Part shown: positions 2,709 to 21,513 of the stretch, piece after piece | Layout of the letters: each line of letters starts with the position of its first letter | Position numbering within the stretch: the stretch's first letter is position 1 | Virus record (IMG/VR): IMGVR_UViG_3300009441_000020 | Location: 1-32,680 of that record | Length of the DNA: 32,680 nucleotides | Source of the DNA: a virus | Reading direction: 5' to 3' (one strand) | Position numbers and translations under genes: made by a program | Notes under the pieces: model-generated | Database searches by the model: none | Seen by the model: only the letters and a program-made list of their open reading frames with translations | Told to the model about the DNA's origin: nothing

Positions 2709-4112
2709 TTATTTTTTTATTTTTTTTTCTAATTCATATGCCTTCTCATGGTACATATATGACGTCTTTTTGTAGTCCTTTCGTTGATTATATAAATCTG
2801 CTAATATTTTTTTAAGAATGGAATCTTCTTTTTTGAACACTACGCCGTTTTCACAAACAATAACATTTTCATCCTTTCTTCTTTCTGGTATATCTAATAG
2901 TTTCACTTGTTCTACGTAAGATTCTGGTGAAATATTAAATTGTCTCATAATTGATGGGTATAGTGAAGCAAAATCAAATGCACTTACTCCAGAATAATAT
3001 CCAACAATTGGTTGTTTTACATATGCTCCTTCAAATTTACCCTCTTTAAGAGAATCTGCCTTACCATATTCTACACCGATCTTTTTATTAGTTTCAGCTA
3101 ATTTTCTTGCTAATAGAGATTCGGTAATAGCCACCGGCGAAGATGCTTTATATAATGGCATTTTAGTAATTGTAGCCAATGTTAAAAGTACTTCCATTGA
3201 TCTCAACTGTTGATCGATATAATATACAAGACATGAATCTATTACATTGTAGTAAATATACTTTGTGAAATCATTTTCATATAAATCCTGTAATGATCCA
3301 CTATATTTAATTTTATTAATATCTAATACAGCACCTGAAACAAAGTCTAAAGAATTTGATTCTTTTACAGCCACCGATCTGTCATACTTGTCATATAATT
3401 GCATGTAATCTAGAATACCCATATGTAATGGTCTACTATCGTTTCTATCTAATGATCCCGTGATAGCCACGTCAGTCAGGTCGATCTGTAATCGTTTACA
3501 TCTATTGACTATATACTGCCAATCATAGTTGATGAAGTTCCACCCTGTCATCATTGGGAACTTTGGTAAAAACTTATGTAAGAACGTATACAACATATTA
3601 TACTCATCATCAAACTTATGATAAGAGAATTCCCAATCTTGATCATAATTCTTTAAATACTCATTAGTATCGTCGTTGATCTTTTTAACTTTATCAGATG
3701 GCATATCTTCTAGGCCGAGTACAATTGCTTTGCGTTCTGGTGTTATAATAGAAAATGATAAGATTCTAGATTTAGCTTCTTCTGGTTTTGGAAAACCATC
3801 CACTATTTCTGTTTCTATATCTACAAAATATGTTCTTGGCATATTGAACTCATATATCTCTTCTTTGTCAGCTTCTGGTAAGCTATCCATAAAATACAAT
3901 AGACTAAACTTATTAAATGATTTTGCAAACCCTCTCTTTAAAGGTCTATCATCCCAGTTTCTATAAGTTTTATCTTTGTGTCTGTCTGTTTCTTTAGTAA
4001 CTACCCAGTTTTGGAATTGGTTTACACCATATCGCTTAAAAGAAACTTTACCTTCTTTATCATAATATGATATGATGAGCTCTTTATCTGTTTGTTCAAT
4101 GTCTAATAGCAT
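2709..4112 (-). CDS. 43: DNA polymerase, family B, N-terminal half (exonuclease + palm motif A); split gp43
   Basis: T4 gp43-type replicative polymerase that ends after 467 residues, about half the usual ~900. The 3'-5' exonuclease motifs are intact: Exo I FVDIETE (Asp98, Glu100), Exo II NFINYDWQY (Asp197) and Exo III YNVIDSCLVYYID (Asp292). Polymerase motif A is present at Asp380 in FDFASLYPSIMRQFNISPE, as in T4. The protein then stops at a lysine-rich tail where the fingers helix begins, so the conserved fingers lysines and the DTDS catalytic aspartates of motif C are missing. The next gene downstream is nrdB, so the C-terminal half is not adjacent and must be encoded elsewhere. Split gene 43 (43A/43B) is known from Aeromonas T4-like phages. 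The gene starts at the stop of the dUTPase gene. Confidence 0.9.
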   Translation of the reverse strand: MLLDIEQTDKELIISYYDKEGKVSFKRYGVNQFQNWVVTKETDRHKDKTYRNWDDRPLKRGFAKSFNKFSLLYFMDSLPEADKEEIYEFNMPRTYFVDIETEIVDGFPKPEEAKSRILSFSIITPERKAIVLGLEDMPSDKVKKINDDTNEYLKNYDQDWEFSYHKFDDEYNMLYTFLHKFLPKFPMMTGWNFINYDWQYIVNRCKRLQIDLTDVAITGSLDRNDSRPLHMGILDYMQLYDKYDRSVAVKESNSLDFVSGAVLDINKIKYSGSLQDLYENDFTKYIYYNVIDSCLVYYIDQQLRSMEVLLTLATITKMPLYKASSPVAITESLLARKLAETNKKIGVEYGKADSLKEGKFEGAYVKQPIVGYYSGVSAFDFASLYPSIMRQFNISPESYVEQVKLLDIPERRKDENVIVCENGVVFKKEDSILKKILADLYNQRKDYKKTSYMYHEKAYELEKKIKK

Positions 4113-4579
4113 TAATAATTGTTTTTCTGTCTGTTAACATTCTCTTCGGCTTTTGCGAAGTAGTAATTGTATGCTGTTTTTGCATCTAATCCAATTGAAG
4201 ATGCGTAGTTGATAAAGAAGTGTAGAATATCTACCCATTCCATATACAATTCTTTTTTGTCTCCCTCAGACATATCAGAAATCTTTAATGTATCGTATTT
4301 TGTAAAGTCTTTTTTCCAGTATTTCCATACTGCATTTCCACTTCCGTCTTTAATACCTCCAAGTGCATCTGTCATTTCATGAACTTCATCCATCAGTGAG
4401 TGTGTGTTAACATGCCAGAAATCCATAATTTCTCGGATAGTCATATTATCAAAGTTAATGCCATATGTCTCCTCTTGCATTTTCTTTTGATTAGACATTA
4501 TGTCTTCTAGGTGTGTAGTTGATTTGTCGTAAAAATCATTTACTTCTAGATCTTTACATTCGTTGTCTATATTTGCCAT
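4112..4579 (-). CDS. All-alpha dimeric dUTPase/dCTPase-like NTP pyrophosphatase (T4 gp56 role)
   Basis: A 155-aa helical protein with the metal-binding pattern of the MazG/dimeric dUTPase superfamily. LMDEVHEM carries Glu65 and Glu68, and KKELYMEWVDILHFF carries Glu110, Glu114 and Asp117. The EWxDILHFF helix is typical of the dUTPase_2 family. Such enzymes hydrolyse dUTP (T4 gp56 also dCTP) to the monophosphate, supply dUMP for thymidylate synthesis and keep the unmodified nucleotide out of phage DNA. The stop overlaps the polymerase start by one base, and nrdB/nrdA follow, so it belongs to a nucleotide-supply block. Whether the substrate is dUTP or dCTP cannot be read from the sequence. Confidence 0.75.
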   Translation of the reverse strand: MANIDNECKDLEVNDFYDKSTTHLEDIMSNQKKMQEETYGINFDNMTIREIMDFWHVNTHSLMDEVHEMTDALGGIKDGSGNAVWKYWKKDFTKYDTLKISDMSEGDKKELYMEWVDILHFFINYASSIGLDAKTAYNYYFAKAEENVNRQKNNY

Positions 4580-4633: not shown

Positions 4634-5530
4634 TTATTGATCCATTTCTAAAACTTCTCCCCACTCTCTTTGAGAATTAGTTTTTTCTTTAGTTTCTTCT
4701 GAATCTGGGTAAGGTTGTCCACCTACATTCCAAAACCATGCTCCTGGATTTCCATGTTTCACCATAAACTCCCAAGCTTTAGCATCATAATTCATAGCAG
4801 ATGGAAATGGTGGGGCAAAAGCTGGAGATACGTCAGAAGCAAATGCCTTTGGATGTGACCAAACTTTAGCTTTACCTAATTCTCCATTTTTAATATTTCT
4901 AGAAACTGCGACTGCATTGAATTTAGCATCTGGCCATGCAATCTGCAAAGAGCGTTGCAAAACTCCTGTTGATATTGCAGACCATACTTCTTCTGGGTAA
5001 CCATGTTTTTCTGCAACATCATAAGCTACTTTAACTGCAGCTGCTGTTACTAATTCATGTTTTAAACCCAACGGAATAAAGGTTGCGTTGTTTGCTTCTG
5101 CCCATTCTTTTGCTATTTTATTTAAATTTGGCATTGCAGCAATTCTTCTAAATTTAGGAATAGCTCCTCTTTCAATACAAATTGCTTGATGATCTGAAAT
5201 TACTTTACCAGAAGGCATAAATAAAACCAATTTCTTATTGTACTTATTTGCTAAATATGCCAGAGAAATTCCTGCAAATCCAAATCTAGGTTGTACATAA
5301 ACTAATGTATCTGTTGGTGCCTTTTGAACTAAAATATCTCCGAATCTACATTTAGATCCAAATCCCATCATGTCATCTCTGACTACATTAAATCCTTCAT
5401 GATTAATTATAATAGGATCGTCTAATGGGTCCTTCCAATCACCGGCTAAATCTAACCATGCTTGTCTATTTGGCATCATTAGATTTAAGTCTTGATTCAT
5501 TTTACTTGTTGTGTGCGTATCGTGTGACAT
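4634..5530 (-). CDS. PLP-dependent enzyme, fold type II (ACC deaminase / D-cysteine desulfhydrase-like)
   Basis: A 298-aa protein with the layout of the tryptophan-synthase-beta / ACC-deaminase superfamily. VVRDDMMGFGSKCRFGD aligns with the family motif KRDDLLGxGxGGNKxRK, making Lys60 the likely Schiff-base lysine. A Rossmann-like segment follows (LVYVQPRFGFAGISLAYLA, where related enzymes have GGxQSNHA), then a phosphate-binding loop (AISTGVLQRSL). The sequence has diverged from metabolic ACC deaminases, so the substrate is unknown. It starts 1 nt after the LOG gene stop, suggesting translational coupling. PLP enzymes are known to tailor amino-acid adducts in phages with hypermodified thymidine. 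Such a role here is inference from context, and amino-acid catabolism is the alternative. Confidence 0.7.
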   Translation of the reverse strand: MSHDTHTTSKMNQDLNLMMPNRQAWLDLAGDWKDPLDDPIIINHEGFNVVRDDMMGFGSKCRFGDILVQKAPTDTLVYVQPRFGFAGISLAYLANKYNKKLVLFMPSGKVISDHQAICIERGAIPKFRRIAAMPNLNKIAKEWAEANNATFIPLGLKHELVTAAAVKVAYDVAEKHGYPEEVWSAISTGVLQRSLQIAWPDAKFNAVAVSRNIKNGELGKAKVWSHPKAFASDVSPAFAPPFPSAMNYDAKAWEFMVKHGNPGAWFWNVGGQPYPDSEETKEKTNSQREWGEVLEMDQ

Positions 5531-5531
5531 A

Positions 5532-6206
5532 TTAAAAGTTTGTTTTAGGTCCTAAGTATTCAGGTGTGGTCATATATTTGTTATGGTATTCCATAATCTT
5601 ATCTCTTGCTTCTGCAGCACTATCTACTATTCTAAATAAATCAAAATCCTTTTCACTGATAGTTCCTTCTGATACTAACGTTTCTTTCATCCAATCTATT
5701 AATCCTGACCAGAATTTAGCACCTACAAGAACTATTGGGTATTTTACATTGTGACCACATTGTGCTAATGTAATCGCTTCAAAGGTTTCATCTAATGTTC
5801 CAACGCCACCTGGAAATATAACAAATGCTTGTGAATATTTAAGGAACATTACCTTTCTTGTAAAGAAATACCTGTTATCAACTCCAAGATCTACATATTT
5901 GTTCATACTTGCTTCAAATGGTAGTTCAATACCAACTCCTATAGATTTACCACCCGATTCATGTGCTCCTCTGTTTGCAGCTTCCATGATCCCAGGTCCA
6001 CCTCCAGTAATAACACCAAACCCTTCGCGAGTTATTAACTCTCCAAAAAGCCTAGCTTCTAAATACCACTGATTATCTTCAGCTGTTCTTGCGCTTCCAA
6101 ATACTGAGACACATGGTCCTAATTCGCTAAACGTATCAAATCCTTTTGTGAATTCACCTTGAATCCTTAACACTTGCCATGCATCTTTACTCTTATCTCT
6201 CATCAT
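5532..6206 (-). CDS. LOG-family Rossmann-fold nucleosidase (nucleoside-5'-monophosphate phosphoribohydrolase-like)
   Basis: A 224-aa member of the LOG / former 'lysine decarboxylase' family. Signature motifs are GGGPGIMEAANRGA near residue 70, a conserved arginine in NRYFFTRKVMF, and PGGVGTLDETFE, which supplies the catalytic glutamate. Characterised members (plant LOG, bacterial PpnN) cleave the N-glycosidic bond of nucleoside 5'-monophosphates. In a phage it could recycle or remove specific nucleotides, or release a modified base. The length is close to bacterial homologues and no motif is damaged. The gene opens with two ATGs in tandem, lies 9 nt after the homing endonuclease stop, and is coupled to the PLP-enzyme gene that follows. 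Confidence 0.85.
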   Translation of the reverse strand: MMRDKSKDAWQVLRIQGEFTKGFDTFSELGPCVSVFGSARTAEDNQWYLEARLFGELITREGFGVITGGGPGIMEAANRGAHESGGKSIGVGIELPFEASMNKYVDLGVDNRYFFTRKVMFLKYSQAFVIFPGGVGTLDETFEAITLAQCGHNVKYPIVLVGAKFWSGLIDWMKETLVSEGTISEKDFDLFRIVDSAAEARDKIMEYHNKYMTTPEYLGPKTNF

Positions 6207-6215
6207 TGTGTATTT

Positions 6216-6821
6216 TTACTCGTTAGGGTAATCTTTACATTTATTACCGTGCCATCTGTAATACATGTTTGGGTTAAATTGTTTACCACAGTGTTCGCAT
6301 GTTTTCTTAGTAACTTTTTTAGTTCCACCTGTCATGGCCTTTTTCATTGCAACAATGTGTTCAGCAGATTTCTTTTTACCAGCAAGCGCTTCAGAAACTT
6401 TTTTGTTCCATTCTAAAGTATGTGTTATATTCTTAGATGCTTCTGATATCTTCTGCTTAGTTTCATCACTATGTTTTTTACCTTTCATTCCACTTGAACC
6501 ACCTAAATGGTGTTGTCTTATTTTTTCTCTAACTTCTTTTGTAAATATTACCTCTGCTCCTCTTGCATTATTATAATATTTTTCAGATCTTAGGTTTATT
6601 TGTTTTAATAGTTCTTGTTCGTATTTTAAAGATTCTAATTTAGTTCCCTCAAAAACAATATCTCTTTTCCATTCCTTACTGTCATCTTCGAAATCATTCC
6701 AGAAAAGTTTACTGGAGGACGATGACACATATCCATCATTTTGATTACCCTTATGATAACCAATATATTTTTTATTATCGGTTAAATTATTCCATATATA
6801 CACAAATGCTTCTTCTTTCAT
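6216..6821 (-). CDS. GIY-YIG homing endonuclease with NUMOD3 repeats and zinc finger
   Basis: A free-standing 201-aa homing endonuclease. The N-terminus has the GIY-YIG core, FVYIWNNLTDNKKYIGYHKG, so the 'GIY' tyrosine motif is here YIW. The middle contains two NUMOD3-type DNA-contact repeats, GMKGKKHSDETKQKISEA and LAGKKKSAEHIVAMKKA. The C-terminus is a CxxC...HxxxC zinc finger, CEHCGKQF ending in RWHGNKC. It nicks or cuts DNA to spread itself, as the T4 Seg proteins do. It sits between the LOG gene and the putative modification genes without disturbing either frame, which suggests insertion into a pre-existing operon. No intron boundaries are visible. Confidence 0.9.
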   Translation of the reverse strand: MKEEAFVYIWNNLTDNKKYIGYHKGNQNDGYVSSSSSKLFWNDFEDDSKEWKRDIVFEGTKLESLKYEQELLKQINLRSEKYYNNARGAEVIFTKEVREKIRQHHLGGSSGMKGKKHSDETKQKISEASKNITHTLEWNKKVSEALAGKKKSAEHIVAMKKAMTGGTKKVTKKTCEHCGKQFNPNMYYRWHGNKCKDYPNE

Positions 6822-6849
6822 GTATTATATATCTCAATATTTATATAAA

Positions 6850-8022
6850 TTAGACATGTTTAAATATTTCATTTACTTCTGACGCTTCTTTAGGATAATC
6901 TCTTGCCCATAAGTGTTGTGTTGTTTTTCCATTTACCATAACGTCTTCAGTTGGATGTTTGGCTAAATTAAAGGTTGGATCAAATATCCAGTTATATGGA
7001 ATTCTCTTTGTTGGAGATTTCATTCCATGCGTAATACTAATATGCTTCCAAAAAAAACATGTTTTATCCTCCACGTTCAACATCTTTTGACTAGTCATTG
7101 GATTATTGGGATGATCTGATAAAATTTGCATCTGATCAATCCATGTTTGCGCGTGAGCATTTTCTGCTATAAATTGACCATCTTTATCAATACTATATTT
7201 TACCTTGCCATTTAAGTTTGGGCCTCCAAATATCTGTTGCATTCCATCAAAATGTCCGGTACCACCAAATAAGACAGATTCAGGATCTACTAGATCTGGT
7301 CTACTCATTGCTACATATCTTGCAGTGTTCTTACATGGATATAATGGTGATCTAAAGTTTTGATGTTCTTTAAAATAAGTTTCTAATAACTTTGCAAACT
7401 CCATCATAGTATATGGTCTATCAAGGTTTTCTAGAATGTGGACCATGTCCTTAGCAGCTTGTCGTGGACCATCTAACAACCAATCTTTAACTATTGTACC
7501 TTTAGGATAATAGATTTGAAAAAGATCATTTCTTGCATGTCTATTTTCAACAAAATGTTCTCTTGTTTTTTCTTCACCGTCTTTGATCAATCTTGTAATA
7601 GTACCCCAATGTTCATTACTAAATGAAAATACAATTGTATAATATAATAGTTTTTCTAGATCAGTCTCATGTTGCATCATATAACAATATGGATGTTCAT
7701 GCCAGTGTAGTCTATGTGAAAATATTTGATAGTCATCTAATAGAAGTTGATCTTGTCTCTTGTCAAACGCATGGCAGAATTCAAAGAATTTATTGAAACG
7801 TTCTTCTTGAGTCCAATCTTTCATCCAACTCTCTTTAGGTTTCTTCTTTTTAAATTCTATGTCTAAATTAGTATTGTGATATTTTATATTGGTGTAATTA
7901 GTTTCCTTTTCACCTTCAAAATTAAATAGTTTATTTTGTAAGAAATCTGAATTCATAGATCCTGTTTTTGGGTTGTGTTCAATTTCAAGTCTAGGTTCTG
8001 TTACTGTTTCTTGGTTATTCAT
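6850..8022 (-). CDS. Putative helical DNA-base modification protein (aGPT-PPlase / amino acid:DNA transferase-like), copy 2
   Basis: A 390-aa helical protein rich in Trp and His. I see no textbook motif. It shares an order of motifs with the upstream neighbour: a helix LYYTIVFSFSNEHWGTITRL (compare LYIFILHRVCGSAINYA) and a later segment NTARYVAMSRPDLVDPES followed by GGTGHFDGM (compare FQYAAVIADVCDWYPEFMNR then YYGTNAVECIGYL). That pattern, a helix followed by a small Gly-rich turn, recalls the glycosylase-like alpha-glutamyl/putrescinyl-thymidine pyrophosphorylase family used in phage thymidine hypermodification. The start overlaps the upstream gene by 8 nt. Alternatives are an unrelated phage-specific family or a structural protein. 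The assignment is tentative; the paralogy is better supported than the function. Confidence 0.4.
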   Translation of the reverse strand: MNNQETVTEPRLEIEHNPKTGSMNSDFLQNKLFNFEGEKETNYTNIKYHNTNLDIEFKKKKPKESWMKDWTQEERFNKFFEFCHAFDKRQDQLLLDDYQIFSHRLHWHEHPYCYMMQHETDLEKLLYYTIVFSFSNEHWGTITRLIKDGEEKTREHFVENRHARNDLFQIYYPKGTIVKDWLLDGPRQAAKDMVHILENLDRPYTMMEFAKLLETYFKEHQNFRSPLYPCKNTARYVAMSRPDLVDPESVLFGGTGHFDGMQQIFGGPNLNGKVKYSIDKDGQFIAENAHAQTWIDQMQILSDHPNNPMTSQKMLNVEDKTCFFWKHISITHGMKSPTKRIPYNWIFDPTFNLAKHPTEDVMVNGKTTQHLWARDYPKEASEVNEIFKHV

Positions 8023-9226
8023 GTGTATTTACCATTTTTTTATATTCTTCTACTGAAACTCCCGCAGCTTGTAACACTTTATCGTCTGATGGAAATGATG
8101 TCATTCCATTAAATGTTTCTAATAAACCTAAATCTAACATTGCTTTTTGTCTACCATATGGATGATCTTTGATACTGGAAGAATTCCATAAAGTATCCAT
8201 ATCGATGTGTGAGTAATCCTTACCAGGTCTAAGATAGTTTTCAATCCATCTTATAAAATCACACGCTACATCTTCGGCATTATATGGAAGTGAACCTGTG
8301 TCTTCATAGATCTTGTTCATAACAGCATCTAGAAACTCTTCTGATTTTTTACCTTTCTTTTCTATAGGGTCTGCAAGATATCCAATGCATTCTACTGCAT
8401 TAGTTCCATAATAAAACATAGATTCTCTATTCATGAATTCTGGATACCAATCACATACATCTGCAATAACTGCAGCATATTGAAATCTATATGCCCTTAA
8501 TCCATTATCTGCATTCCATTTAAACATCCATTCACCAAGTTCTCTCAAATCTTTTTTATTACCGTCTCGTAAATAGTTTGACATATCTCTTGCAAGTCTA
8601 GGTGCAAATTCACATAAGAAGTAATCTCCACCTCTTTTATAAACATATTCTGGTTCTGTAAAATCTGACATACCAATAAACGAATCTTCGTTTCCTTTTG
8701 GTTTAGGTGGTTTAGGAAATGCAGGAAATTGATATCCAACTGACGTATAAAATGGCGTAGGATGATGCTTTACCTTTTCACACATATCTTCTATTGACTG
8801 ACAGTCATGTAAATCAAATATAATAGTGTTGTGATAACCTGATGGTTTTGTTGCATAATTAATAGCGGAACCACATACTCGATGTAGTATAAAAATATAT
8901 AGCCACTCTTCCAATCCAAATACTTCATGTTTCCCTGTCCAATTGTTGGCCACTTCTTTTCGTTGAGGGTATATATTACCTGATTTCATGTGTTCCCAAT
9001 ATGGATGATTTGGTGTCCATCCGTAAAAAACATCATTTATAATCTGACTAAAACCTGCGAATTTTCTTTCCACAACATCATACAATTGAATGTGTTCCAT
9101 CAATGGATCATTCATGTTACTTTGATCATGTGGAACTGTACCTAAATTAGATAGCTTTTGTTGTTCAAATGCTAAATTATAGTATCTAATAAACTCGTCG
9201 TAATATTTAGTCGTTTTTATTTCCAT
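8015..9226 (-). CDS. Putative helical DNA-base modification protein (aGPT-PPlase / amino acid:DNA transferase-like), copy 1
   Basis: A 403-aa helical protein. Features that suggest the hypermodification transferase class: a helix EEWLYIFILHRVCGS, in the position where the family usually has an NxxR helix; an AYRFQYAAVIADVCDWYP helix resembling the 'F-AYQVxxDL' helix; and, after about 14 residues, FYYGTNAVECIGYL, resembling 'GPGsxxGL'. Also notable is ACDFIRWIENYLRPGKDY near residue 335. The known family members transfer an amino acid or amine to activated 5-hydroxymethyl-dU in DNA. The gene overlaps the 60-aa gene upstream by 20 nt and its paralogue downstream by 8 nt, so the three are probably translated together. 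No 5-hmdU DNA kinase is present in the window, which weakens the case. Confidence 0.4.
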   Translation of the reverse strand: MEIKTTKYYDEFIRYYNLAFEQQKLSNLGTVPHDQSNMNDPLMEHIQLYDVVERKFAGFSQIINDVFYGWTPNHPYWEHMKSGNIYPQRKEVANNWTGKHEVFGLEEWLYIFILHRVCGSAINYATKPSGYHNTIIFDLHDCQSIEDMCEKVKHHPTPFYTSVGYQFPAFPKPPKPKGNEDSFIGMSDFTEPEYVYKRGGDYFLCEFAPRLARDMSNYLRDGNKKDLRELGEWMFKWNADNGLRAYRFQYAAVIADVCDWYPEFMNRESMFYYGTNAVECIGYLADPIEKKGKKSEEFLDAVMNKIYEDTGSLPYNAEDVACDFIRWIENYLRPGKDYSHIDMDTLWNSSSIKDHPYGRQKAMLDLGLLETFNGMTSFPSDDKVLQAAGVSVEEYKKMVNTHE

Positions 9227-9389
9227 TCTTTTCTAATATTTCCCAAGTAAATGGATCTCTATTTCTTCTATACTGTTCCATAGACCATTCTATGTCACCT
9301 GTTGTAAGATCTATTATATGAGGCTTCGCAGCACACATGTGATTTTTAGTTATTGGTGTAATTTTGATTTTGTAGTCGGTTGTTTTCAT
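9207..9389 (-). CDS. Small protein of unknown function (60 aa)
   Basis: A short ORF embedded in the modification cluster: its ATG lies 1 nt after the stop of the SGNH-like gene and its end overlaps the next gene by 20 nt. This tight packing supports it as a real translated gene. The C-terminal half is basic and aromatic (IEWSMEQYRRNRDPFTWEIL). The RRNRDPFTW stretch faintly recalls the R-x-x-G-x-PWT segment at the start of the helical modification families, so it may be a separated N-terminal piece of such a protein. No function can be assigned. Confidence 0.6.
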   Translation of the reverse strand: MKTTDYKIKITPITKNHMCAAKPHIIDLTTGDIEWSMEQYRRNRDPFTWEILEKNGNKND

Positions 9390-9390
9390 T

Positions 9391-10464
9391 TTAAAATAGG
9401 GCTAAAGTTTGTTTAATTAATTTTTTATTAGGTTCGTTCTTAATTAAATCCCATCTATAAAATTCTCTAGCAATGTGTACTGATTTTGGTTTCTCCATAA
9501 CATCAAATGTTAATTCATTAAGAGCGTTAAAGTAAACTTCTGGATGTCTATATGAAATCCAATTGTTTCTTTCGCACATATCATCAATACCTGCATTGAT
9601 TTCTTTTACTAGAGCAGATCTTTCAGACCATGTTCCAGTATATGGTGTTCCTTTATAAAATCCTGTTTTTGGTAATGGTCTACTCTCATTTTCTATTGGT
9701 AAACAATGTACTACTTCTATATTGGAAACACCAGTATCTTGTAATTTTAATAATTCTGCTTCGTAATTAACTAGAAGCTTTTTAACTGAAGCGCTAGGAT
9801 TAGGTTGACGCATCAAGTGATGTCTAACATCTATATTACCCATATAAACTCTTAGATCTGTGATCCATGGATATACATATGTTTCTAATCCTCTGGTGAG
9901 TGCACCGTGCATTGTTAATCCATCATGCCGCTGTGTCATATACCCTGGTGAATATTGACTAAATGAATGACTATCACCAAAACAAAGTTTGTTAGTTTTT
10001 TCTATAGAATCAATTCTAGGTATGTCATTTGCACATATACTTTGTATATTGTCTATTTTATCTTCTAGTGTTTTGAATAAATCTGTACCCGTATGTAACC
10101 TTTGTTTAACTAATTCTGCTATACATGGCATGTCATGATGTAATGAAAACATTTTAACATCTGAAAATATCCTAGAGATCTGATGATATAAATCATCATT
10201 AGCACCTCCGAATATATTGAATGTTCCTTTAAATTCCATTCCATGTTCTAATAGAATAGTATCAAAGTTGTTCCAATCGGGTGTTACTGTTGTGATAACT
10301 TCTACGTTTTCATAACCTGCGCTCCTACATTGATTTGCTAGGTGAAATGCCCAACCTGATTTGTGAGAACTTTCTTTTGGGCTTAATTTTCCAACTAAAG
10401 CTGCTATCCCAATTCGAGACGACTTGTCGGAAATGTAATCTGATAAGTATTTAAATTCTGTCAT
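9391..10464 (-). CDS. SGNH/GDSL-hydrolase-like protein with N-terminal Rossmann-like region
   Basis: A 357-aa protein. The first ~110 residues (RIGIAALVGKLSP, HKSGWAFHLANQCRSAGY, VEVITT) look like a nucleotide- or sugar-binding Rossmann half-domain. From about residue 160 SGNH blocks can be read: CFGDSHSFSQ (block I Ser), YMGNIDVRHHL (a block III GxND-like asparagine) and a C-terminal DVMEKPKSVHIAREF (block V Asp...His). SGNH enzymes are esterases or acyltransferases, and some act on sugars or modified polymers. It heads a group of overlapping genes with the two putative modification proteins, so a role in trimming or acylating a modified base or sugar is conceivable but unproven. The start is 7 nt after the upstream DUF6378-like gene. 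Confidence 0.55.
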   Translation of the reverse strand: MTEFKYLSDYISDKSSRIGIAALVGKLSPKESSHKSGWAFHLANQCRSAGYENVEVITTVTPDWNNFDTILLEHGMEFKGTFNIFGGANDDLYHQISRIFSDVKMFSLHHDMPCIAELVKQRLHTGTDLFKTLEDKIDNIQSICANDIPRIDSIEKTNKLCFGDSHSFSQYSPGYMTQRHDGLTMHGALTRGLETYVYPWITDLRVYMGNIDVRHHLMRQPNPSASVKKLLVNYEAELLKLQDTGVSNIEVVHCLPIENESRPLPKTGFYKGTPYTGTWSERSALVKEINAGIDDMCERNNWISYRHPEVYFNALNELTFDVMEKPKSVHIAREFYRWDLIKNEPNKKLIKQTLALF

Positions 10465-10470
10465 AACTTG

Positions 10471-10779
10471 TTATTTAATAGGATCTTCTGTTTCACCATA
10501 ACCATGCTTTTCAACATAGTTATCTAGAGCGCCTAAGTAAGCTACTGCATCTAGGAGATTATCTTGTTTATAATTATATGAATGTCGACTCAATTTAAGA
10601 GCTACAAGTGCAGCGTACATATCAGAGCCATTTAATTCTTTACCTGTCATACCATTGAAAACCATGGCAGCTCTTCGCATACCTTCTTCAAATGGTCCAT
10701 ATTGACGTGATTTTTCTTCTGATCTATTATTAACTATCTCGTTAGCTTCAGACAGAATGTTGGATTTTTTATTAGACAT
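10471..10779 (-). CDS. DUF6378-like phage protein
   Basis: A 102-aa helical protein with the pattern ILSEANEIVNN, then QYGPFEEGMRRAA, then DMYAALVALKLSRHSYNYKQDNLLDAVAYLGALDNY. This matches my recollection of a widespread phage family (DUF6378) with the signature 'YG...F...A....K..R......DN..D...Y'. The two conserved Asp-rich helices are reminiscent of all-alpha NTP pyrophosphatases, but no clear ExxE metal site is visible. Its biochemical role is unknown. It starts a transcription segment after a 105-nt gap that contains a promoter-like motif and a small palindrome. Confidence 0.6.
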   Translation of the reverse strand: MSNKKSNILSEANEIVNNRSEEKSRQYGPFEEGMRRAAMVFNGMTGKELNGSDMYAALVALKLSRHSYNYKQDNLLDAVAYLGALDNYVEKHGYGETEDPIK

Positions 10780-12922: not shown

Positions 12923-13351
12923 TTAATATGTTGGAGTTTCTATTATCTTCAACTTAATAAGTTCAGCAATAAATTCTCTGTATTTCATTTTTTTAATTCC
13001 ACTAATAATAGTTTTATCACCTTCTACAAAATCAGAACCGTCAAAGTAATATGAGTTACCGTTATTGGCTGCTATTGTTATAACGTCACCTATCATAAAG
13101 TCAGAAGGACATCTTCTAGCACCAGATAAATCTTTTACAACATCTTTTCCCCATGCAGATAAACCATCTTGTTCACTTACACTACCGTCATATCTAATAG
13201 GATTTCCTGGCAATGCTTGTACAGCGTCACCTTCTGGCGTTCCATCAACTGCATAATAATATGCAAGAATAGCGTTAGCTAATGCTTCATCTCTGCCAGC
13301 TTTTAATTTTGCTTCGTTAAGAAACTGTTCAAATAATTGTAAGTGTTTCAT
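12923..13351 (-). CDS. Putative packaged internal head protein with capsid-targeting N-terminus (142 aa)
   Basis: The N-terminus MKHLQLFEQFLNE/AKLK matches the pattern of T4 capsid-targeting sequences (MKTYQEFIAE in internal protein III), with LNE as a possible gp21 prohead protease site after residue 13. The remaining ~129 residues contain a helical part (EALANAILAYYYAVDGTPEGDAV) and a beta-rich SH3-like stretch (DFMIGDVITIAANNGNSYYFDGSDFVEG). The body has no recognised family. Its first 27 nt (including the base before ATG) are identical to those of the next gene upstream, exactly 300 bp away. The role of the mature protein after injection is unknown. Confidence 0.75.
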   Translation of the reverse strand: MKHLQLFEQFLNEAKLKAGRDEALANAILAYYYAVDGTPEGDAVQALPGNPIRYDGSVSEQDGLSAWGKDVVKDLSGARRCPSDFMIGDVITIAANNGNSYYFDGSDFVEGDKTIISGIKKMKYREFIAELIKLKIIETPTY

Positions 13352-13360: not shown

Positions 13361-13651
13361 TTATGTGTTTTGATTAATATAATCTATAAAGTCATCTGCT
13401 GTCTTACATGGATCATCTGATTGATCAGAACCTGGTCTTTTTTGGTATTCAATACCACATTCTTCATCTTCTGCATTCCACCAAAACATAAAACCGGCCG
13501 AGCTTACGCTTCCGTCTTCTATATAATCATTTACATAGATTTCCACTTCAGATGGTTCTGTGTCTTCGTAATAGTCTGCTATCTTTTTAATTTCTTTCTT
13601 GATATTAACTTTTTCGTTAATGAATTGTTCAAATAATTGTAAGTGTTTCAT
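13361..13651 (-). CDS. Putative packaged internal head protein with capsid-targeting N-terminus (96 aa)
   Basis: Begins MKHLQLFEQFINE/KVNIK: the same targeting module as its neighbour, with a candidate cleavage after INE (residue 13). The mature part (~83 residues) is strongly acidic (DYYEDTEPSEVEIYVNDYIEDGS, then DEECGIEY and DQSDDPCKTADDFIDY) and no family is recognised. An acidic body could mimic DNA or bind a basic host protein, but this is speculation. The leader carries three perfect copies of a 12-nt A-rich unit. Confidence 0.75.
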   Translation of the reverse strand: MKHLQLFEQFINEKVNIKKEIKKIADYYEDTEPSEVEIYVNDYIEDGSVSSAGFMFWWNAEDEECGIEYQKRPGSDQSDDPCKTADDFIDYINQNT

Positions 13652-13701: not shown

Positions 13702-14763
13702 TTAATGACCATATTTACGATCCCATGCATAATCGAAATCTTCTATCTTATCTATTTCGAGTCTAAGCTTATGAGCAGTTTCTAAGATATCTTCATCATA
13801 GTGTGTTGGTGCATCTCCGTATTTATCTTTTAATTCTGCTTGTCCTTCCATGGAATATGTGTACGTTCTAAAAGCACCCAATATTCTGTTCATTTGCATT
13901 GCAGCATGTGTCATTGTCACTTCTTTACCACCAGGTGCAGTACCTATAACAACATCATCGTCCTTTCCTACACTTCTTCCAAATTCTTTTATACCATCTT
14001 TAATTTGCTCGGTTAAATCCATAATAGCATCCTTGACCATTTTACCTAATGGAAGTTTAACTGCAGCACTTTGTAAAATGTCTTTATATCTTTTTAGGTT
14101 TTCATATTTAAATTCCATATCGTTTTTATATACAATGGCTCCAACTTTTTCAGCATCTCGTTGTGCTATCTTATTTACCGTTGAATATCTTTGTTGTAAT
14201 GAATCGACATCAATAATAATAGCTCTATCTGAAACTTCAGCGATTCTCTTTACACTAGTAAGACCTGTTCCTTGCCATCCTGATCTTGTCTTATTAATAC
14301 CTATAGTTTCTTCACCTCTTTGCTTATCTGTTTCTATACTTCTAGGAGTTTTATATTTTCCTGACATTTGTTGTACTCTGTCCAAATATCCATGTAGGTC
14401 TCTATCAACAAAGAATTTATTATTTTCATCGGCAACACATAACATGTATTCACCTCCTGGGATAGTTCTTGATCTTATAGATTGAGCTTCCTCGGGAGCG
14501 TATGGGTTAACTTTTTCAACATCTGAAATGTAGAAAGTAATTGTGTTTTTACCTTTAGCCTTATATGCAGCATGTGGTGTTGTTACGATTAAATCATCAT
14601 CTTGTATCTTATCTAATGCTATTTTAGTTTTACCATAAAATGCTTCAGGTAATGTACTGTGTACGCCACCTCCATTAAATAAATCTCTAAGTATTTGTGA
14701 ACTAAACGCCTCGTTTAATTTCTGTGAAGTTACAAATGCTTCAAATAAGTGTATGTGTTTCAT
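13702..14763 (-). CDS. Putative packaged internal head protein with CTS; paralogue of the next upstream gene (353 aa)
   Basis: Starts MKHIHLFEAFVTSQKLNE/AFSSQ, a capsid-targeting-like module with a likely prohead-protease site after LNE at residue 18. The mature ~335-residue domain is clearly paralogous to the C-terminal half of the gene upstream. Shared blocks include LPEAFYGKTKIALDKIQDDD, NTITFYISDVEKVNPYAP, TIPGGEYML, GINKTRSGWQGTGLTSVKRI and IDKIEDFDYAW. The fold is unknown to me; the alternating beta segments and conserved Arg/Tyr would fit an enzyme. T4 packages its Alt ADP-ribosyltransferase in the same way, but I see no convincing R-S-E ADP-ribosyltransferase motif. Head packaging is inferred from the N-terminus. 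Confidence 0.75.
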   Translation of the reverse strand: MKHIHLFEAFVTSQKLNEAFSSQILRDLFNGGGVHSTLPEAFYGKTKIALDKIQDDDLIVTTPHAAYKAKGKNTITFYISDVEKVNPYAPEEAQSIRSRTIPGGEYMLCVADENNKFFVDRDLHGYLDRVQQMSGKYKTPRSIETDKQRGEETIGINKTRSGWQGTGLTSVKRIAEVSDRAIIIDVDSLQQRYSTVNKIAQRDAEKVGAIVYKNDMEFKYENLKRYKDILQSAAVKLPLGKMVKDAIMDLTEQIKDGIKEFGRSVGKDDDVVIGTAPGGKEVTMTHAAMQMNRILGAFRTYTYSMEGQAELKDKYGDAPTHYDEDILETAHKLRLEIDKIEDFDYAWDRKYGH

Positions 14764-16602: not shown

Positions 16603-16627
16603 ATGTTATTATTTTATTATATATTCT
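16603..16627 (-). promoter_or_regulatory. Putative late promoter, copy A (22-bp shared element)
   Basis: The minus-strand core AATATATAATAAAATAATAA lies 10-30 nt before the ATG at 16596 and straddles the stop codon of the upstream gene. Twenty-two bases (16603-16624) are identical to 21533-21554, which has the same gene-end/gene-start position. T4 late promoters have only a TATAAATA -10 box, and this AT box with no -35 would fit that logic. Confidence 0.5.
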
Positions 16628-18464
16628 TAATAAATTGGTCGAATGTCATTGTCTCTATTTCAGATTCTGTTAAAACGCCCATCGAATCTTCTAATTTTGA
16701 TTTTAATTCTTTATACATTTTATGTAAAGGTGTTGGTGTTAGCTTCTTAAACAACTTCTCATCACCGTCTAACATTGCATTTCTAACTTGTGTTGCTGAA
16801 ATATTATTGCCAGTTCTTGGAATCTCATATAATCCAAAATCAGGTCTTACACCAAGATCTTCTCTATAAGTATCTTTATTTACTTGAAACCCATAAGTCT
16901 TCATTCTATCACTTCCTGTTCCCCATAATACTGGTTCATATTTTGGCCTCATTGCATTAAACATAGTATCAATACCGCCAGTTGGTATTACGAAAACTTC
17001 TTCGATTGGATATTTAGATTTTAAAGATTTAATCATTTCTACTTGAGTGTCCTCGTCATAAGGTCTCTTAAATGCATCTTCTTTCTTTTTAGTCTTAGAT
17101 TTAACTAAGAATATAACTACTGGATATCCGTTTTGTTTATGTATAGCTTCAACAACTTTAACATGACCTAATGTAAATGGTTGAAATCTTCCAACGAACA
17201 TGTTTACTAATTTAGTACCTTGTTCTGGATAATCCACTTTAAGTGCTTCTAAGACTGGTGATTCAGTATATTGTAATTTTTGATTTAATAAGTATGCTTT
17301 AAAATTCATAACATCACTTTCATTTGTTTTTGACATTACAACTGCTTCTATAGTATCAACAATATCATTGATTTGATTCATTAAATCTTTATTAATAATA
17401 TCTGTTTCTTTGTTTCTTCTTTTTCTAAAACTACCCAATGTAATTTTAAATAATTCAGATAATACTTTATTTTGTACTAATGATACAGTTTTTTCGTTTG
17501 ATATAAATGCAGGATTAAGTTCAAATCCTCTATTGTCAGAAAAATCTGCTGAATCAAAATTAGCGCCTATATATTTTGGTGCATTCTTCTGAACATATTC
17601 GTTAAATAATATTGATATCAGCTCAATATATCTTAAATCTGGTTCTTCTTCTTCAAGTGACACATCTTTCAAGTCAAAGCTTGTAATGTATTCTACTAAA
17701 TCCAGAATTGATATTTGGTACATATCAGAAGGTTGCCTAGGTTCTTGTTGTTTTCTATCAAAACGCTCTAGTTTAAAACTCTTAGGATTTTTACCTTCAT
17801 AAAAGTTCAATATCAATCCATCTATGTCGGTGTCTAATGTTGTGTTTAATGCTGGATTATTAAGACCATTATTAAATATGTTGTAAATAGATCTAGTAAA
17901 AGATTGATCTTTGTATCTTAATGAGAAATCAGAATCTGACATACCTAAAAGAGATATTAAGTCATCTTTTTGGTTAGATTGTAATTTACCTTGAAATATG
18001 ATCGGTGGTCTTTGTACACCCAATGTATCTGCCCACTTGTTTAAAACTTGTGGATCTCTAATTACCTTTTTGATTTGTGTTAAATCATTAGGGTTTAATA
18101 CTTGTATATGTGTTAATATTAAATTGTTTTTAGGAAGTGTTTCATATTCTATGTCTACTGTTTTGTTTTCGATCATGTAATCGAAACCAAACTTCCAATC
18201 CAATGGCATGTCTTCTGTTACTTCACTTAATATGGTACCAAAATATTTAATACCATTTTCATAGTATTTAACCATAGTTCTATCAATTCTATCCATAGAA
18301 TATTTAGAACCACTTTTAAAGTATTCAAAACCTGTATTTGTTTTCTTTACGTGGAAAGAAGACGCTTGTATTTTTTCAGATACAACACATGGTAATTCTA
18401 ATATTGACATAAAGTCGTTAATATTAGTTTCTTTAAAGTATGTTCTTAAATTTTGTAATGCCAT
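16617..18464 (-). CDS. Ligase-type nucleotidyltransferase fused to NMN-adenylyltransferase-like domain (615 aa)
   Basis: N-terminal ~280 residues: an RNA/DNA-ligase-type nucleotidyltransferase, with motif I VSEKIQASSFHV (likely nucleotidyl-lysine Lys31), a motif III-like FGFDYMI, motif IV DIDGLILNF and motif V KSFKLERF. A helical linker follows. From about residue 440 there is an HxGH-superfamily nucleotidyltransferase of the NadM/NadR NMNAT type, with GRFQPFTLGHVKVVEAI, then GTGSDRM and ISATQVRNAM (the ISxTxxR motif). Such an enzyme joins NMN and ATP into NAD. The fusion puts NAD formation and an adenylation/ligation domain in one chain. It lies 11 nt upstream of a related ligase-like gene's stop and within the internal-protein operon. 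It lacks an N-terminal CTS, but the C-terminus (TMTFDQFIKNI) resembles one. Confidence 0.75.
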   Translation of the reverse strand: MALQNLRTYFKETNINDFMSILELPCVVSEKIQASSFHVKKTNTGFEYFKSGSKYSMDRIDRTMVKYYENGIKYFGTILSEVTEDMPLDWKFGFDYMIENKTVDIEYETLPKNNLILTHIQVLNPNDLTQIKKVIRDPQVLNKWADTLGVQRPPIIFQGKLQSNQKDDLISLLGMSDSDFSLRYKDQSFTRSIYNIFNNGLNNPALNTTLDTDIDGLILNFYEGKNPKSFKLERFDRKQQEPRQPSDMYQISILDLVEYITSFDLKDVSLEEEEPDLRYIELISILFNEYVQKNAPKYIGANFDSADFSDNRGFELNPAFISNEKTVSLVQNKVLSELFKITLGSFRKRRNKETDIINKDLMNQINDIVDTIEAVVMSKTNESDVMNFKAYLLNQKLQYTESPVLEALKVDYPEQGTKLVNMFVGRFQPFTLGHVKVVEAIHKQNGYPVVIFLVKSKTKKKEDAFKRPYDEDTQVEMIKSLKSKYPIEEVFVIPTGGIDTMFNAMRPKYEPVLWGTGSDRMKTYGFQVNKDTYREDLGVRPDFGLYEIPRTGNNISATQVRNAMLDGDEKLFKKLTPTPLHKMYKELKSKLEDSMGVLTESEIETMTFDQFIKNI

Positions 18465-18474
18465 ATTATATTGT

Positions 18475-19758
18475 TTATCTTCCGTATTTGATAATACCCA
18501 TAAGCTGATTTATAGCAGCGAATGTGCCTGTTAATTTAAATGTCTTACCTTTATATACAAATACTAATCCTTCAGTAGGTATAATAGATTCAACACCTCC
18601 GATTCTATCTAATCTTGCAAGTTCTGCTTCAACCTTTTCTATGGCTTTTATATCTCCGCCCTTTCTAAGTTTATCAGCTTCTGTTCTAATTTGATCATGT
18701 AATCTCTGTGCCTCAGCATCAGGATTGGCAGCAACAAAATTACTTGCATTTTTAAGAATAACGCTTCCTAGTTCTAAGAATAAATCCTCAAATGGTCTAA
18801 TGTTTTCTTTATATTTTTTAGCAACGTCCTCTTTATCGAACTTCTTAATAATAGCTGCTTTATCTTTTCCTAACTCTTTATCTAATGATCTTAAATTAAG
18901 TGTCTTTTTGTCAGCATACGCCCATCTTAATAATAAACCTTCTTTAAAGTCTTGTGATAAGTCTGGGAAATTAATATCTATTTGTTCTCTCCACCACATT
19001 TCGTGATATCTTGAAACCTCATCGGCATCTGTTAAATTATACCTAGCTCTTAGTACTTCTACTTTCTTTACAAACTTTTCTTTGTTCTTTTCAAAATCAA
19101 GATCCTTACCTAATTTAATAATTTGTGGAGGGATTATAGTAAATGTTTTACCTACATTTTTCTTAAGATCTGATAAAGCCTTTGTAATTGATTTAGCATA
19201 CTTAGTTTCTTCTCCTATGATATTACCTTCGCCGTCTGTTATTTTAATTCCATGAAACTGAATAATGTCTCTGTCATAATAGATAACGTTTGGATTTTTA
19301 GAGTAAATAAGCTCCATATTCATGAAGTTCAGTCCGTTATCGAATGCCTCTAAATCTTTAGATGAGAGTGATGATAAAGCGTCTGATAGATCTGTTGCTG
19401 CAAAGATATATGTTTCTTCGACCAATTTAGATGCGTGACCAGTGAACATTGAAATGATACCATTAAGGTCTAATGGATTTTTCATTTGTCCTTTGTTTCT
19501 GGCAAACATTGCTTGACCATCTTTTACAGTAACAAATAAGTTTTGACCATCTGTTTTTTCAGTAGGCTCTTCTTCAAAGTTTAATTCACCAGATAGTCCA
19601 GCTTCTATTAAATTTTTAAAATCACCAAATGTAAGTGATTTGTCATCAAACGGATGTTTCATGTGCCCTGCAGCACCACCTTCTAGAATCAATGATTCTC
19701 GTATATTGATGTGCAAACCTTCTGTTACAAACTGTTCAAACTTATTATAAATCTTCAT
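18475..19758 (-). CDS. Ligase-type nucleotidyltransferase with capsid-targeting N-terminus (427 aa)
   Basis: Begins MKIYNKFEQFVTE/GLHIN, very close to the T4 internal-protein leader, with a second candidate cleavage LILE/GG at residue 26. The body has covalent nucleotidyltransferase motifs: motif I EKTDGQNLFV (Lys68, in the KxDG form), an arginine in MFARNKG (motif Ia-like), motif III FMNMELIY (Glu149), motif IV EGLVFVYKG (Glu396) and motif V TFKLTG (Lys408). Members of this superfamily adenylate themselves and then seal nicked DNA or RNA or cap RNA. A C-terminal OB fold is not evident, which fits RNA ligases better than classical DNA ligases. If the N-terminus works as in T4, the enzyme is packed in the head and enters the cell with the genome. 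Confidence 0.75.
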   Translation of the reverse strand: MKIYNKFEQFVTEGLHINIRESLILEGGAAGHMKHPFDDKSLTFGDFKNLIEAGLSGELNFEEEPTEKTDGQNLFVTVKDGQAMFARNKGQMKNPLDLNGIISMFTGHASKLVEETYIFAATDLSDALSSLSSKDLEAFDNGLNFMNMELIYSKNPNVIYYDRDIIQFHGIKITDGEGNIIGEETKYAKSITKALSDLKKNVGKTFTIIPPQIIKLGKDLDFEKNKEKFVKKVEVLRARYNLTDADEVSRYHEMWWREQIDINFPDLSQDFKEGLLLRWAYADKKTLNLRSLDKELGKDKAAIIKKFDKEDVAKKYKENIRPFEDLFLELGSVILKNASNFVAANPDAEAQRLHDQIRTEADKLRKGGDIKAIEKVEAELARLDRIGGVESIIPTEGLVFVYKGKTFKLTGTFAAINQLMGIIKYGR

Positions 19759-19779: not shown

Positions 19780-21513
19780 TTAAGCTCCTAGTGAACTAGT
19801 TAACATACCGGCAGCAGTACCATAATCTCCATCTGCTTTTGCTAATATTCCGTCAATTACTTTTTTTGCTTTTGCTTCGTCAAACTCTTCTCCAAATGCT
19901 TGTTTTAAAACAGTATTTGCGTATTCGTTAAACTCTTCGTCAGATTTAATTTCTGCTTCAGTTATTACTGATTCATACGCATCTTCATGATCATCGATAG
20001 AATCCGGTCCCCATATATCAGCTAAAACCTTTTCAATATCTTTTCTTTTACCAGTTAATTTAACTTCTGGGTAACCATGGTCTCCTTCTTCTTTTTCAAC
20101 TTCCATTTTAACCTTGTTCTTCTTTAAAGATTTAGTTAAAGGTATATGTTTAGTTGGGTGGATACCATCATCGTTTCCAAATTCTATACCTGAAAGAGAT
20201 GCTTCAGTTATTACTGATTCTTTAACAAATATTGCTTCTTTATCACTATATCCAGGTTCTAATGAAAGTCCGTGTTTTTTCATTAATGATTTGTATTTAT
20301 CAACGTTATTAATAAATTCAATAGCAACGTCATCCATATCGCTTGGATCTGTATTTAGAAATCCTGTATAATCATCGTGTTTTTTATCAAATTGATAGTC
20401 TTTAGAAATCATTGTTAAGAACGCATTAACTTCTGATTTACCTTCAGTAATTACTGATTCTTCAATTTGTGCCGATTCTGACATATTGAATGCATTTAAT
20501 AAAGATTGTCCTGTAGCTTCTTGTTTAATACTTTCTAAATACAGTGCAGTACCTTCAACTATTCCAATACCTGACCATCCAGCAGCATTTGCTATATCTG
20601 AATAATATTGATCTAATATTCTTTTAGTTGTTGTAGCTCCAATTTTAATGAAATAATTTCCTAAACCTGGCATTTTAATTTCAAAACTGCCAATGTTACC
20701 TTTAATATTCTTAGAAATTACAAAACCTTCTCTTGAAAAGTTTGCATCTTCCATCGCTTGTTCAAATAAGTATTTGATACATCCTAATTCACCTTGTAGT
20801 GACATAGCACCAAAATCAGTTAATCTCTTTGCAAATAAGTTTCTATATACTGTAAGTACTTTTTTAGCATCTCTTTTGTATTCTACCTTAATAGCTTCAT
20901 TTACAGAAACTGATAAAGATTCAAATGCTGGTTGTAATTCAGTACCTGCATAAACATCTGCCATTAACCATTCTTTGTTGGCTTCGTCCCATAAATATAC
21001 ATATTCTGCTCCATCATTGCTAGCATCTTTTATGTATTTTTTTACATCTGCAATACTACCCTTAAGGTTTTTAGAACCATCTTTATAGAAGTTCATTTTA
21101 TCTGGAGTAGCCTCTAATCCGGATGAATTACCACCCTTAATTACAGCATCTACGTTTTTGCCGGCTTTATATCCTTTTTTAATAAGAGGTAATACATTTT
21201 CTGGGTAAGAATCATAATGAGTGTAAATAGAAACAATGTTTCCTTTCTTATCAATTTTACCAAATTGTCCTCTTGTTCCTTCTTCAATTAACGCAACAGA
21301 TTCACTAATTTCTGTTCCTCTTAATTTATTGAAGAATTCAGGTTTTTGATCTTCTGTTAGCTCTTTAATAGAAGTAACATTAAACTCAGCTAATAAATTT
21401 TTAAATGTTTCAGCTTCATCAGATCTCTTAGTAGAGTTGTCTTCTTCTACTTGTCTAGTCTGTGTGATCTTAACTTCAGTAGAAAACTGATCAAATGATT
21501 TTAATTTGTGCAT
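19780..21513 (-). CDS. Internal head polyprotein with CTS and repeated ESVITE cleavage linkers (577 aa)
   Basis: Starts MHKLKSFDQFSTE/V, a CTS-like module. The chain is divided by repeated short linkers: ESVALIEE/G (71-79), SVSVNE/A (201-207), ESVITE/G (352-358), ESVITE/A (432-438) and ESVITE/A (514-520). T4 gp21 cuts after Glu in (L/I)xE, so each is a plausible site. Segments: 80-206 (FGKIDKKGNIVSIYTHYDSYP..., a beta-rich phage domain), 207-357 (a helical then Gly-rich domain), 358-437, 438-519 (the KVKMEV...PEVKLTGKRKDIEKVL module shared with the 603-aa protein) and 520-577. Its layout suggests several mature proteins packaged from one precursor. It is the first gene of its operon, 33 nt after UvsW. 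Confidence 0.75.
   Translation of the reverse strand: MHKLKSFDQFSTEVKITQTRQVEEDNSTKRSDEAETFKNLLAEFNVTSIKELTEDQKPEFFNKLRGTEISESVALIEEGTRGQFGKIDKKGNIVSIYTHYDSYPENVLPLIKKGYKAGKNVDAVIKGGNSSGLEATPDKMNFYKDGSKNLKGSIADVKKYIKDASNDGAEYVYLWDEANKEWLMADVYAGTELQPAFESLSVSVNEAIKVEYKRDAKKVLTVYRNLFAKRLTDFGAMSLQGELGCIKYLFEQAMEDANFSREGFVISKNIKGNIGSFEIKMPGLGNYFIKIGATTTKRILDQYYSDIANAAGWSGIGIVEGTALYLESIKQEATGQSLLNAFNMSESAQIEESVITEGKSEVNAFLTMISKDYQFDKKHDDYTGFLNTDPSDMDDVAIEFINNVDKYKSLMKKHGLSLEPGYSDKEAIFVKESVITEASLSGIEFGNDDGIHPTKHIPLTKSLKKNKVKMEVEKEEGDHGYPEVKLTGKRKDIEKVLADIWGPDSIDDHEDAYESVITEAEIKSDEEFNEYANTVLKQAFGEEFDEAKAKKVIDGILAKADGDYGTAAGMLTSSLGA
19954..20463 (-). repeat. Three dispersed copies of the ESVITE-encoding linker
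   Basis: Near-identical ~18-nt segments (GAATCAGTAATAACTGAAG and a one-base variant) occur near 19956, 20203 and 20446, each coding for ESVITE at a domain boundary. Their nucleotide-level conservation suggests duplication or shuffling of whole linker-plus-domain units. Recombination between them would delete single domains in frame. Confidence 0.8.

Follow-up and report, generated by a model that had tools for sequence, protein, structure and literature searches.

A candidate phage operon for hypermodification of 5-hydroxymethylcytosine with an amino-acid-derived group

Gene content of the cluster

The IMG/VR virus record IMGVR_UViG_3300009441_000020, a fragment of 32,680 nt referred to below as the window, carries between positions 4634 and 10464 a cluster of genes that very probably serves to hypermodify 5-hydroxymethylcytosine (5hmC) in phage DNA. 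This cluster (Table 1) encodes two helical proteins of 403 and 390 amino acids (aa), a pyridoxal-phosphate (PLP)-dependent enzyme of fold II and a protein with SGNH motifs, together with a LOG-family phosphoribohydrolase and a 60-aa protein. A first-pass annotation, made from the sequence alone, had proposed that these genes form a cluster for DNA-base hypermodification. All its open reading frames (ORFs) were recovered at the same coordinates on the minus strand, and the neighbouring genes for a nucleoside triphosphate (NTP) pyrophosphohydrolase, a partial DNA polymerase and ribonucleotide reductase (RNR) are as it described them. The identity of the LOG protein is borne out by Pfam (PF03641, E 1.3e-34), and its sequence carries the PGGxGTxxE motif (FPGGVGTLDE). 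One gene had been overlooked: a NUMOD3 homing endonuclease gene (PF07460, E 9e-7; phrog_314, E 1.3e-23) splits the cluster, separating the 390-aa gene from the LOG gene.

Table 1. Genes of the cluster and its immediate neighbours in the window
Feature	Position	Strand	Basis
All-alpha NTP pyrophosphohydrolase, T4 gp56 dCTPase/dUTPase family	4112..4579	-	phrog_173
PLP-dependent fold-II enzyme, M6 gp52 family	4634..5530	-	phrog_7093
LOG-family nucleoside-5'-monophosphate phosphoribohydrolase (accessory)	5532..6206	-	PF03641
NUMOD3 homing endonuclease, 201 aa (mobile, outside the pathway)	6216..6821	-	PF07460 and phrog_314
390-aa protein, predicted PUGT fold, HhH-GPD-like	6850..8022	-	AlphaFold2 model and structure match
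403-aa protein, predicted PUGT fold, core of the system	8015..9226	-	AlphaFold2 model and structure match
60-aa protein (accessory)	9207..9389	-	near relatives only
SGNH-motif protein	9391..10464	-	GDSH, GNID and His330 motifs
DUF6378 protein, directly upstream of the SGNH-motif gene	10471..10779	-	PF19905, E 7e-12

Distribution and gene order

Relatives of the helical proteins are numerous in IMG/VR (at least 562 for the 403-aa protein and at least 263 for the 390-aa protein), and those of the 403-aa protein are also found on four contigs of metagenome-assembled genomes. The same two proteins gave zero tblastn matches in 50,697 phage records. Gene order was read in about 130 loci and in 12 lineages with 5 kb or more of flanking sequence on each side. 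In these lineages, the core around the 403-aa gene comprises the SGNH gene (10/12), the PLP gene (9/12) and the 390-aa gene (7/12). The core genes usually overlap or abut and are arranged in several permuted orders, and the genes for the LOG protein, the 60-aa protein and the homing endonuclease are present at some loci and missing from others. That the core genes co-occur in shuffled orders speaks for a unit of function and not for inherited synteny, and the gene set is not due to chance, since it is conserved across 12 lineages.

Two proteins with the predicted fold of amino acid:DNA transferases

No significant match to Pfam or PHROG was obtained for the 403-, 390- and 60-aa proteins, and a search of PDB sequences with profiles of the 403-aa, 390-aa and SGNH families returned only noise. 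The AlphaFold2 models of the 403-aa protein (pLDDT 82.5, pTM 0.84) and of the 390-aa protein (pLDDT 77.5, pTM 0.77) both have PUGT as their first-ranked match in the PDB: 8z2n for the former (Z 10.0 over 209 aa, rmsd 3.8) and 8z2m for the latter (Z 8.3 over 222 aa, rmsd 4.1). PUGT is the 5-phosphomethyl-deoxyuridine glycinyltransferase of Pseudomonas phage PaMx11 (gp46); gp51 of Pseudomonas phage M6, the amino acid:DNA transferase (AADT) of a 5-NedU phage, is its close sequence relative. In BFVD, the nearest models are A0A6J5L8T5 (57% identity to the 403-aa protein) and A0A6J5LCY1 (52% identity to the 390-aa protein), both of which bear the UniProt name 'Amino acid:DNA transferase domain-containing'. 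Lower-ranked BFVD matches of the two models include AADT, aGPT-PPlase clade 1 and the helical proteins of 5-hydroxymethyl-deoxyuridine (5-hmdU) kinases.

These models point to AADT-fold proteins, which are not filed as members of the ADDT family because they lack a Pfam ADDT match. The 390-aa protein is a candidate for a second transferase or for a base-flipping partner. The two had been called paralogous in the first-pass annotation: at the level of the fold this description stands, both models retrieving the same structure family first, but the profile-profile comparison of the two proteins is weak (probability 10%, E 0.003) and suggestive only.

A PLP enzyme related to M6 gp52

The assignment of the third core gene to the PLP-dependent enzymes is supported by phrog_7093 (E 2e-39), a PHROG that also contains M6 gp52 (E 2e-159), whereas the match to Pfam PALP (PF00291) reaches just 2.7e-4 and falls below the cut-off. 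Within the 5-NedU cluster of M6, the gene for gp52 has the AADT gene on one side and a radical SAM gene on the other. A C-terminal signature, PFP...YD.KAW...FWN.G, is common to the window enzyme, M6 gp52 and proteins of phages ZS04 and Mae-JY30. In Erythrobacter phage ZS04, the M6-gp52-type PLP domain is flanked on both sides by DNA methylase segments (L137:2326-4764), in a protein annotated as a DNA methyltransferase only; in Microcystis phage Mae-JY30, the PLP-type gene comes after one that matches a DNA methylase. The window enzyme is a candidate for acting on an amino-acid moiety attached to the base. Globally, the transferase folds and the M6 gp52 PHROG lend support to the earlier proposal of DNA-base hypermodification by aGPT-PPlase/AADT-fold proteins and a PLP enzyme, and the sensitive placement of the 390- and 403-aa proteins with AADT is positive at fold level.

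The modified base

Phage hydroxymethylases are homologues of thymidylate synthase, in which Asn at residue 177 (ThyA) corresponds to dUMP and Asp to dCMP; according to a metagenomic study, Asp177 marks phages with cytosine-modified DNA and position 147 is also among the top two positions (PMC8670742). In 16 contigs of diverged relatives of the window, a hydroxymethylase gene lies 0.4-3 kb from the core genes. All 16 cluster-linked enzymes, for which the residue is visible, display Asp177 and Thr147, as does T4 gp42. In the same alignment, M6 gp58 and ViI gp60 have Asn at both positions and true thymidylate synthases (ThyA) have Asn177 and His147. An Asp177-type hydroxymethylase is also encoded elsewhere in the contig in four relatives of the window with long contigs, G004 (212 kb, a close relative), G006 (256 kb), G009 and G012, and a ClpP-type gene adjoins it in three of these four; in G004 and G006, an ordinary thymidylate synthase, with Asn177, is encoded separately. 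The gp42-type hydroxymethylase of Aeromonas phage 44RR has Asp177 too.

Many diverged clusters occur with a dCMP deaminase, and a gene of the C5-cytosine methylase family is located directly 3' of the SGNH gene in locus L194. The pyrophosphohydrolase of the window belongs to phrog_173 (E 6e-13), as does T4 gp56 (E 6e-39). T4 gp56 removes dCTP, and the window protein, judged by its family, would be expected to prevent the incorporation of dCTP into DNA. The hydroxymethylase residues, the dCMP deaminase, the C5-cytosine methylase-family gene and the gp56-type dCTPase together designate 5hmC as the target, and there is hardly any doubt that cytosine, rather than thymine, is the modified base. The first-pass annotation had suggested an amino-acid-derived thymine or another new modification; thymine does not agree with the dCMP-type hydroxymethylase of the relatives, in whose cluster-bearing records, mostly fragments, no 5-hmdU kinase family was found, and the alternative clause of that annotation, that the chemistry differs, proved to be the right one.

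The SGNH-motif protein and the activation step

Among the 27-28 SGNH-like sequences aligned, GDSH, GNID and His330 are invariant or nearly so. The SGNH label comes from these motifs and not from profiles of known function: no match was found in Pfam, functional PHROGs or PDB sequences, and just two PHROGs of unknown function are hit. Homologues exist in two Aeromonas phages, 44RR (ORF233c, 34% identity) and Aes012 (Aes012_228, 28% identity). ORF233c is a 795-aa protein whose SGNH part continues into a C-terminus that weakly resembles HMUDK_hel (E 0.0036 with Pfam and 4e-4 in the genome search, both below cut-off) and shows a GPGA..TL.RL stretch resembling M6 gp55. This fusion hints, without proving it, that the SGNH-like protein and a partner of the AADT/HMUDK_hel fold work together on a flipped 5-hydroxymethyl base.

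Thymine pathways require a 5-hmdU kinase, and the first-pass annotation had held that one must lie outside the window unless the chemistry differs. The kinase models (PF18748, PF18723) are unmatched in the cluster-bearing records, which are mostly fragments, while the M6 and ViI controls match PF18748; a search with M6 gp54 likewise revealed no kinase in the vicinity of the clusters. In G009, two P-loop kinase genes adjoin the hydroxymethylase gene, but they are not conserved with the cluster and were rejected. The conserved additional protein, located where a kinase would be expected, is the SGNH-like one, a candidate for an activation or finishing step; that it replaces the 5-hmdU kinase is conceivable, if somewhat doubtful.

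Proposed pathway and alternatives

The best explanation of these data is that the operon hypermodifies 5hmC and that the group added to it derives from an amino acid. The second claim is probable once the first is granted, and the two jointly have a probability of about two in three, a figure that does not extend to the SGNH step. We infer the following order of events. 5hm-dCMP would be made by a dCMP hydroxymethylase of the T4 type whose gene lies in another part of the genome, and the gp56-family pyrophosphohydrolase would deplete dCTP, leading the phage polymerase to incorporate 5hmC. After replication, the 403-aa PUGT/AADT-fold protein, together with its 390-aa homologue in most phages, would flip the base and then link its 5-methylene carbon to an amine, most probably an amino acid. 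Next, the PLP enzyme, being of the M6 gp52 type, may alter this amino acid, for instance decarboxylate it, and the SGNH-motif protein, in place of a 5-hmdU kinase, may activate the hydroxymethyl group or finish the product. The fuller scenario of a large, uncultured phage group whose 5hmC is conjugated to an amino acid without a P-loop kinase, with SGNH-type activation and with paired AADT-fold proteins and a PLP enzyme completing the base, is tentative.

Several observations weigh against this explanation. The hydroxymethylase gene was not found in the window record itself, a 32.7-kb fragment, and the kinase searches revealed no activation enzyme in contigs that are mostly incomplete. Pfam ADDT (PF18724) is unmatched by 25 members each of the 403-aa and 390-aa families and also in the cluster genomes, whereas the M6 and ViI controls match it. 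The hhalign comparison with M6 AADT gives a probability below 2%, in a test that is insensitive, as the control pair of AADT and HMUDK_hel fails equally (2.6%). The fold is also common to DNA glycosylases and does not by itself imply transfer chemistry. Furthermore, two lineages hold the 403/390 pair alone, without the PLP or SGNH gene. A weak Pfam ADDT match in the L196 genome (E 0.12) was rejected, as it sits in an unrelated 436-aa chromosomal ORF.

Among other explanations, a 5hmC hypermodification that is not based on an amino acid is unlikely. In that case the helical proteins would flip the base, the SGNH-like protein would acylate or esterify the hydroxyl, glycosyltransferases would add sugars and the PLP enzyme would make an amino-sugar or amine donor instead of acting on DNA. 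Genes for a GT2 glycosyltransferase and a UDP-galactopyranose mutase lie directly downstream of the PLP gene in locus L061 (11833-14113) and also in L060, L062 and L044, such a mutase gene is also located near the SGNH homologue of Aes012, and an epimerase gene follows the cluster in L193. In most lineages, however, the cluster contains no sugar genes, the PLP enzyme looks like M6 gp52 and not like sugar aminotransferases, and the best fold match is a glycinyltransferase. The fold of the helical proteins and the PLP family are those of thymine pathways, which would fit hypermodification of 5-hydroxymethyluracil (5hmU) as initially proposed; thymine was nevertheless rejected as the target on the hydroxymethylase residues, since all the cluster-near enzymes are Asp177/Thr147 and none has Asn, and the absence of matches to HMUDK kinase families in the mostly fragmentary cluster contigs and the separate Asn177 thymidylate synthases of G004 and G006 likewise make this proposal highly improbable.

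It is also improbable that the helical proteins are DNA glycosylases, or repair or anti-host enzymes that excise cytosine or foreign bases, in an operon devoted to host DNA breakdown or to self/non-self discrimination. HhH-GPD DNA glycosylases are the next-best PDB fold matches (Z 7.9 for the 403-aa and 7.2 for the 390-aa model), and in L192 (8018-8818) and L079 (7596-8390) a 403/390 pair devoid of PLP and SGNH genes has a Pfam HhH-GPD gene immediately upstream; yet PUGT is the better match for both proteins, and base excision does not account for their constant linkage to the PLP enzyme, the dCMP hydroxymethylase and the SGNH protein. An ordinary operon of nucleotide metabolism without any DNA modification, to which the neighbouring RNR, dCTPase/dUTPase and polymerase genes might point, is very improbable in view of two proteins with a DNA-acting fold and of the linkage to dCMP hydroxymethylase.

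Comparison with known modification systems

The operon resembles the thymidine pathways of M6, ViI and PaMx11 in its parts list and in fold, but the hydroxymethylase of its relatives is not of the dUMP type and no kinase was found as far as searched. The M6 system comprises an AADT (gp51), a PLP enzyme (gp52), a radical SAM enzyme (gp53) and a 5-hmdU kinase (gp54/55). As in M6, an AADT-fold transferase adjoins a PLP enzyme of phrog_7093 and a hydroxymethylase of the thymidylate synthase fold is present in the same genome (here, in relatives). Unlike M6, this hydroxymethylase acts on dCMP according to its signature, neither a P-loop kinase nor HMUDK_hel is detected by Pfam, two AADT-fold proteins and an SGNH-like protein are present, and no radical SAM enzyme was noted in the window cluster. 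PUGT, the top solved-structure match of both models, shares 7-12% identity with them, is about 100 residues shorter and is linked to the other pyrimidine; the window proteins differ from it also in having no Pfam ADDT match. The Asp177 hydroxymethylase (in relatives, not in the 32.7-kb window) and the gp56-family pyrophosphohydrolase (in the window) recall T4, from which the operon differs by an AADT-fold/PLP/SGNH set alongside or in place of glucosyltransferases. With 44RR ORF233c and Aes012_228 it shares a homologous SGNH-motif protein; in contrast, 403/390-type proteins are absent from every phage record searched, and in 44RR the SGNH part is fused to the weakly HMUDK_hel-like region.

Cytosine C5 is also decorated in the phage DNA of two other systems. 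One produces 5-carbamoyloxymethylcytosine with a carbamoyltransferase (PMC8670742); the other, CmoA/CmoX/CmoY, attaches glycine (5cxmC-glycine) with a methyltransferase dependent on Cx-SAM and an ATP-dependent ligase, its features being a Cx-SAM synthase, CmoX with an SPPC motif and Arg350, and the ligase CmoY (PMC12783734). In contrast to the window operon, the available text on these two systems mentions no AADT-fold protein or PLP enzyme (PMC8670742, PMC12783734). No CmoA/CmoX/CmoY-type gene was noted in the window, where no search aimed at these genes was made. The decorations of 5hmC or cytosine C5 described in the accessible literature are glucosylation, arabinosylation (PMC6024577), carbamoylation (PMC8670742) and carboxymethylation with glycine (PMC12783734), and none of them was seen to use this gene set. 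No description of amino-acid-conjugated 5hmC was found in a comparison that leaves the main thymidine work and a 2013 computational survey aside, so that an earlier prediction is possible.

To our knowledge, amino-acid hypermodification by AADT-fold enzymes is known for 5hmU phages only. The same kind of machinery tied to 5hmC would extend phage DNA chemistry by a new base, and would give a group of more than 500 IMG/VR relatives, no cultured member of which was found, a new means of evading restriction and defences that target 5hmC. 5hmC is also a mark used in mammals, and the operon offers candidate enzymes for attaching amines to it. Moreover, the function of unannotated genes of classic Aeromonas T4-like phages, such as 44RR ORF233c, becomes directly testable.

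Accessory and lineage-specific genes

The LOG, 60-aa and homing endonuclease genes are accessory. LOG is present in a minority of clusters, on which ground it was rejected as a core enzyme; the 60-aa protein is found at 83 loci and is absent from diverged clusters, and the homing endonuclease occurs at only about 10 loci. The DUF6378 gene is conserved in near relatives (about 100 loci), and diverged clusters carry in a similar place a different small protein, weakly DUF1599/Nmad1-like.

In L072 (3655-4002) and L074 (550-903), a phage gene for a glycine cleavage H protein (GcvH) is situated between those of the dCMP hydroxymethylase and deaminase on one side and the 403-aa gene on the other; its product may be a source of one-carbon units, or a sign that the added group comes from glycine. 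The side genes found in some lineages (GcvH, GT2 with the mutase, epimerase, HhH-GPD) suggest that the end product varies from one phage to another. A DAHP synthetase gene lies close to the cluster in L122 (7497-8249).

Other features of the window

The DNA polymerase gene (2709-4112) encodes 467 aa only and ends soon after the first polymerase motif. It is apparently a split gene 43, comparable to that beside gp42 in phage 44RR, with the second half in L140. Farther along the window, five otherwise unrelated proteins (12923-13351, 13361-13651, 13702-14763, 18475-19758 and 19780-21513) have in common an MKHLQLFEQF..E-like leader, apparently a tag for capsid targeting that a prohead protease removes. 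The gene at 16617-18464 encodes an apparent fusion of a ligase-like domain and a nicotinamide-nucleotide adenylyltransferase-like domain (GRFQPFTLGH), and that at 30591-31988 a proline/threonine-rich, immunoglobulin-like tail protein with an apparent C-terminal Hint/intein-like domain (CHLVGDLLTLANG...YLVHN).

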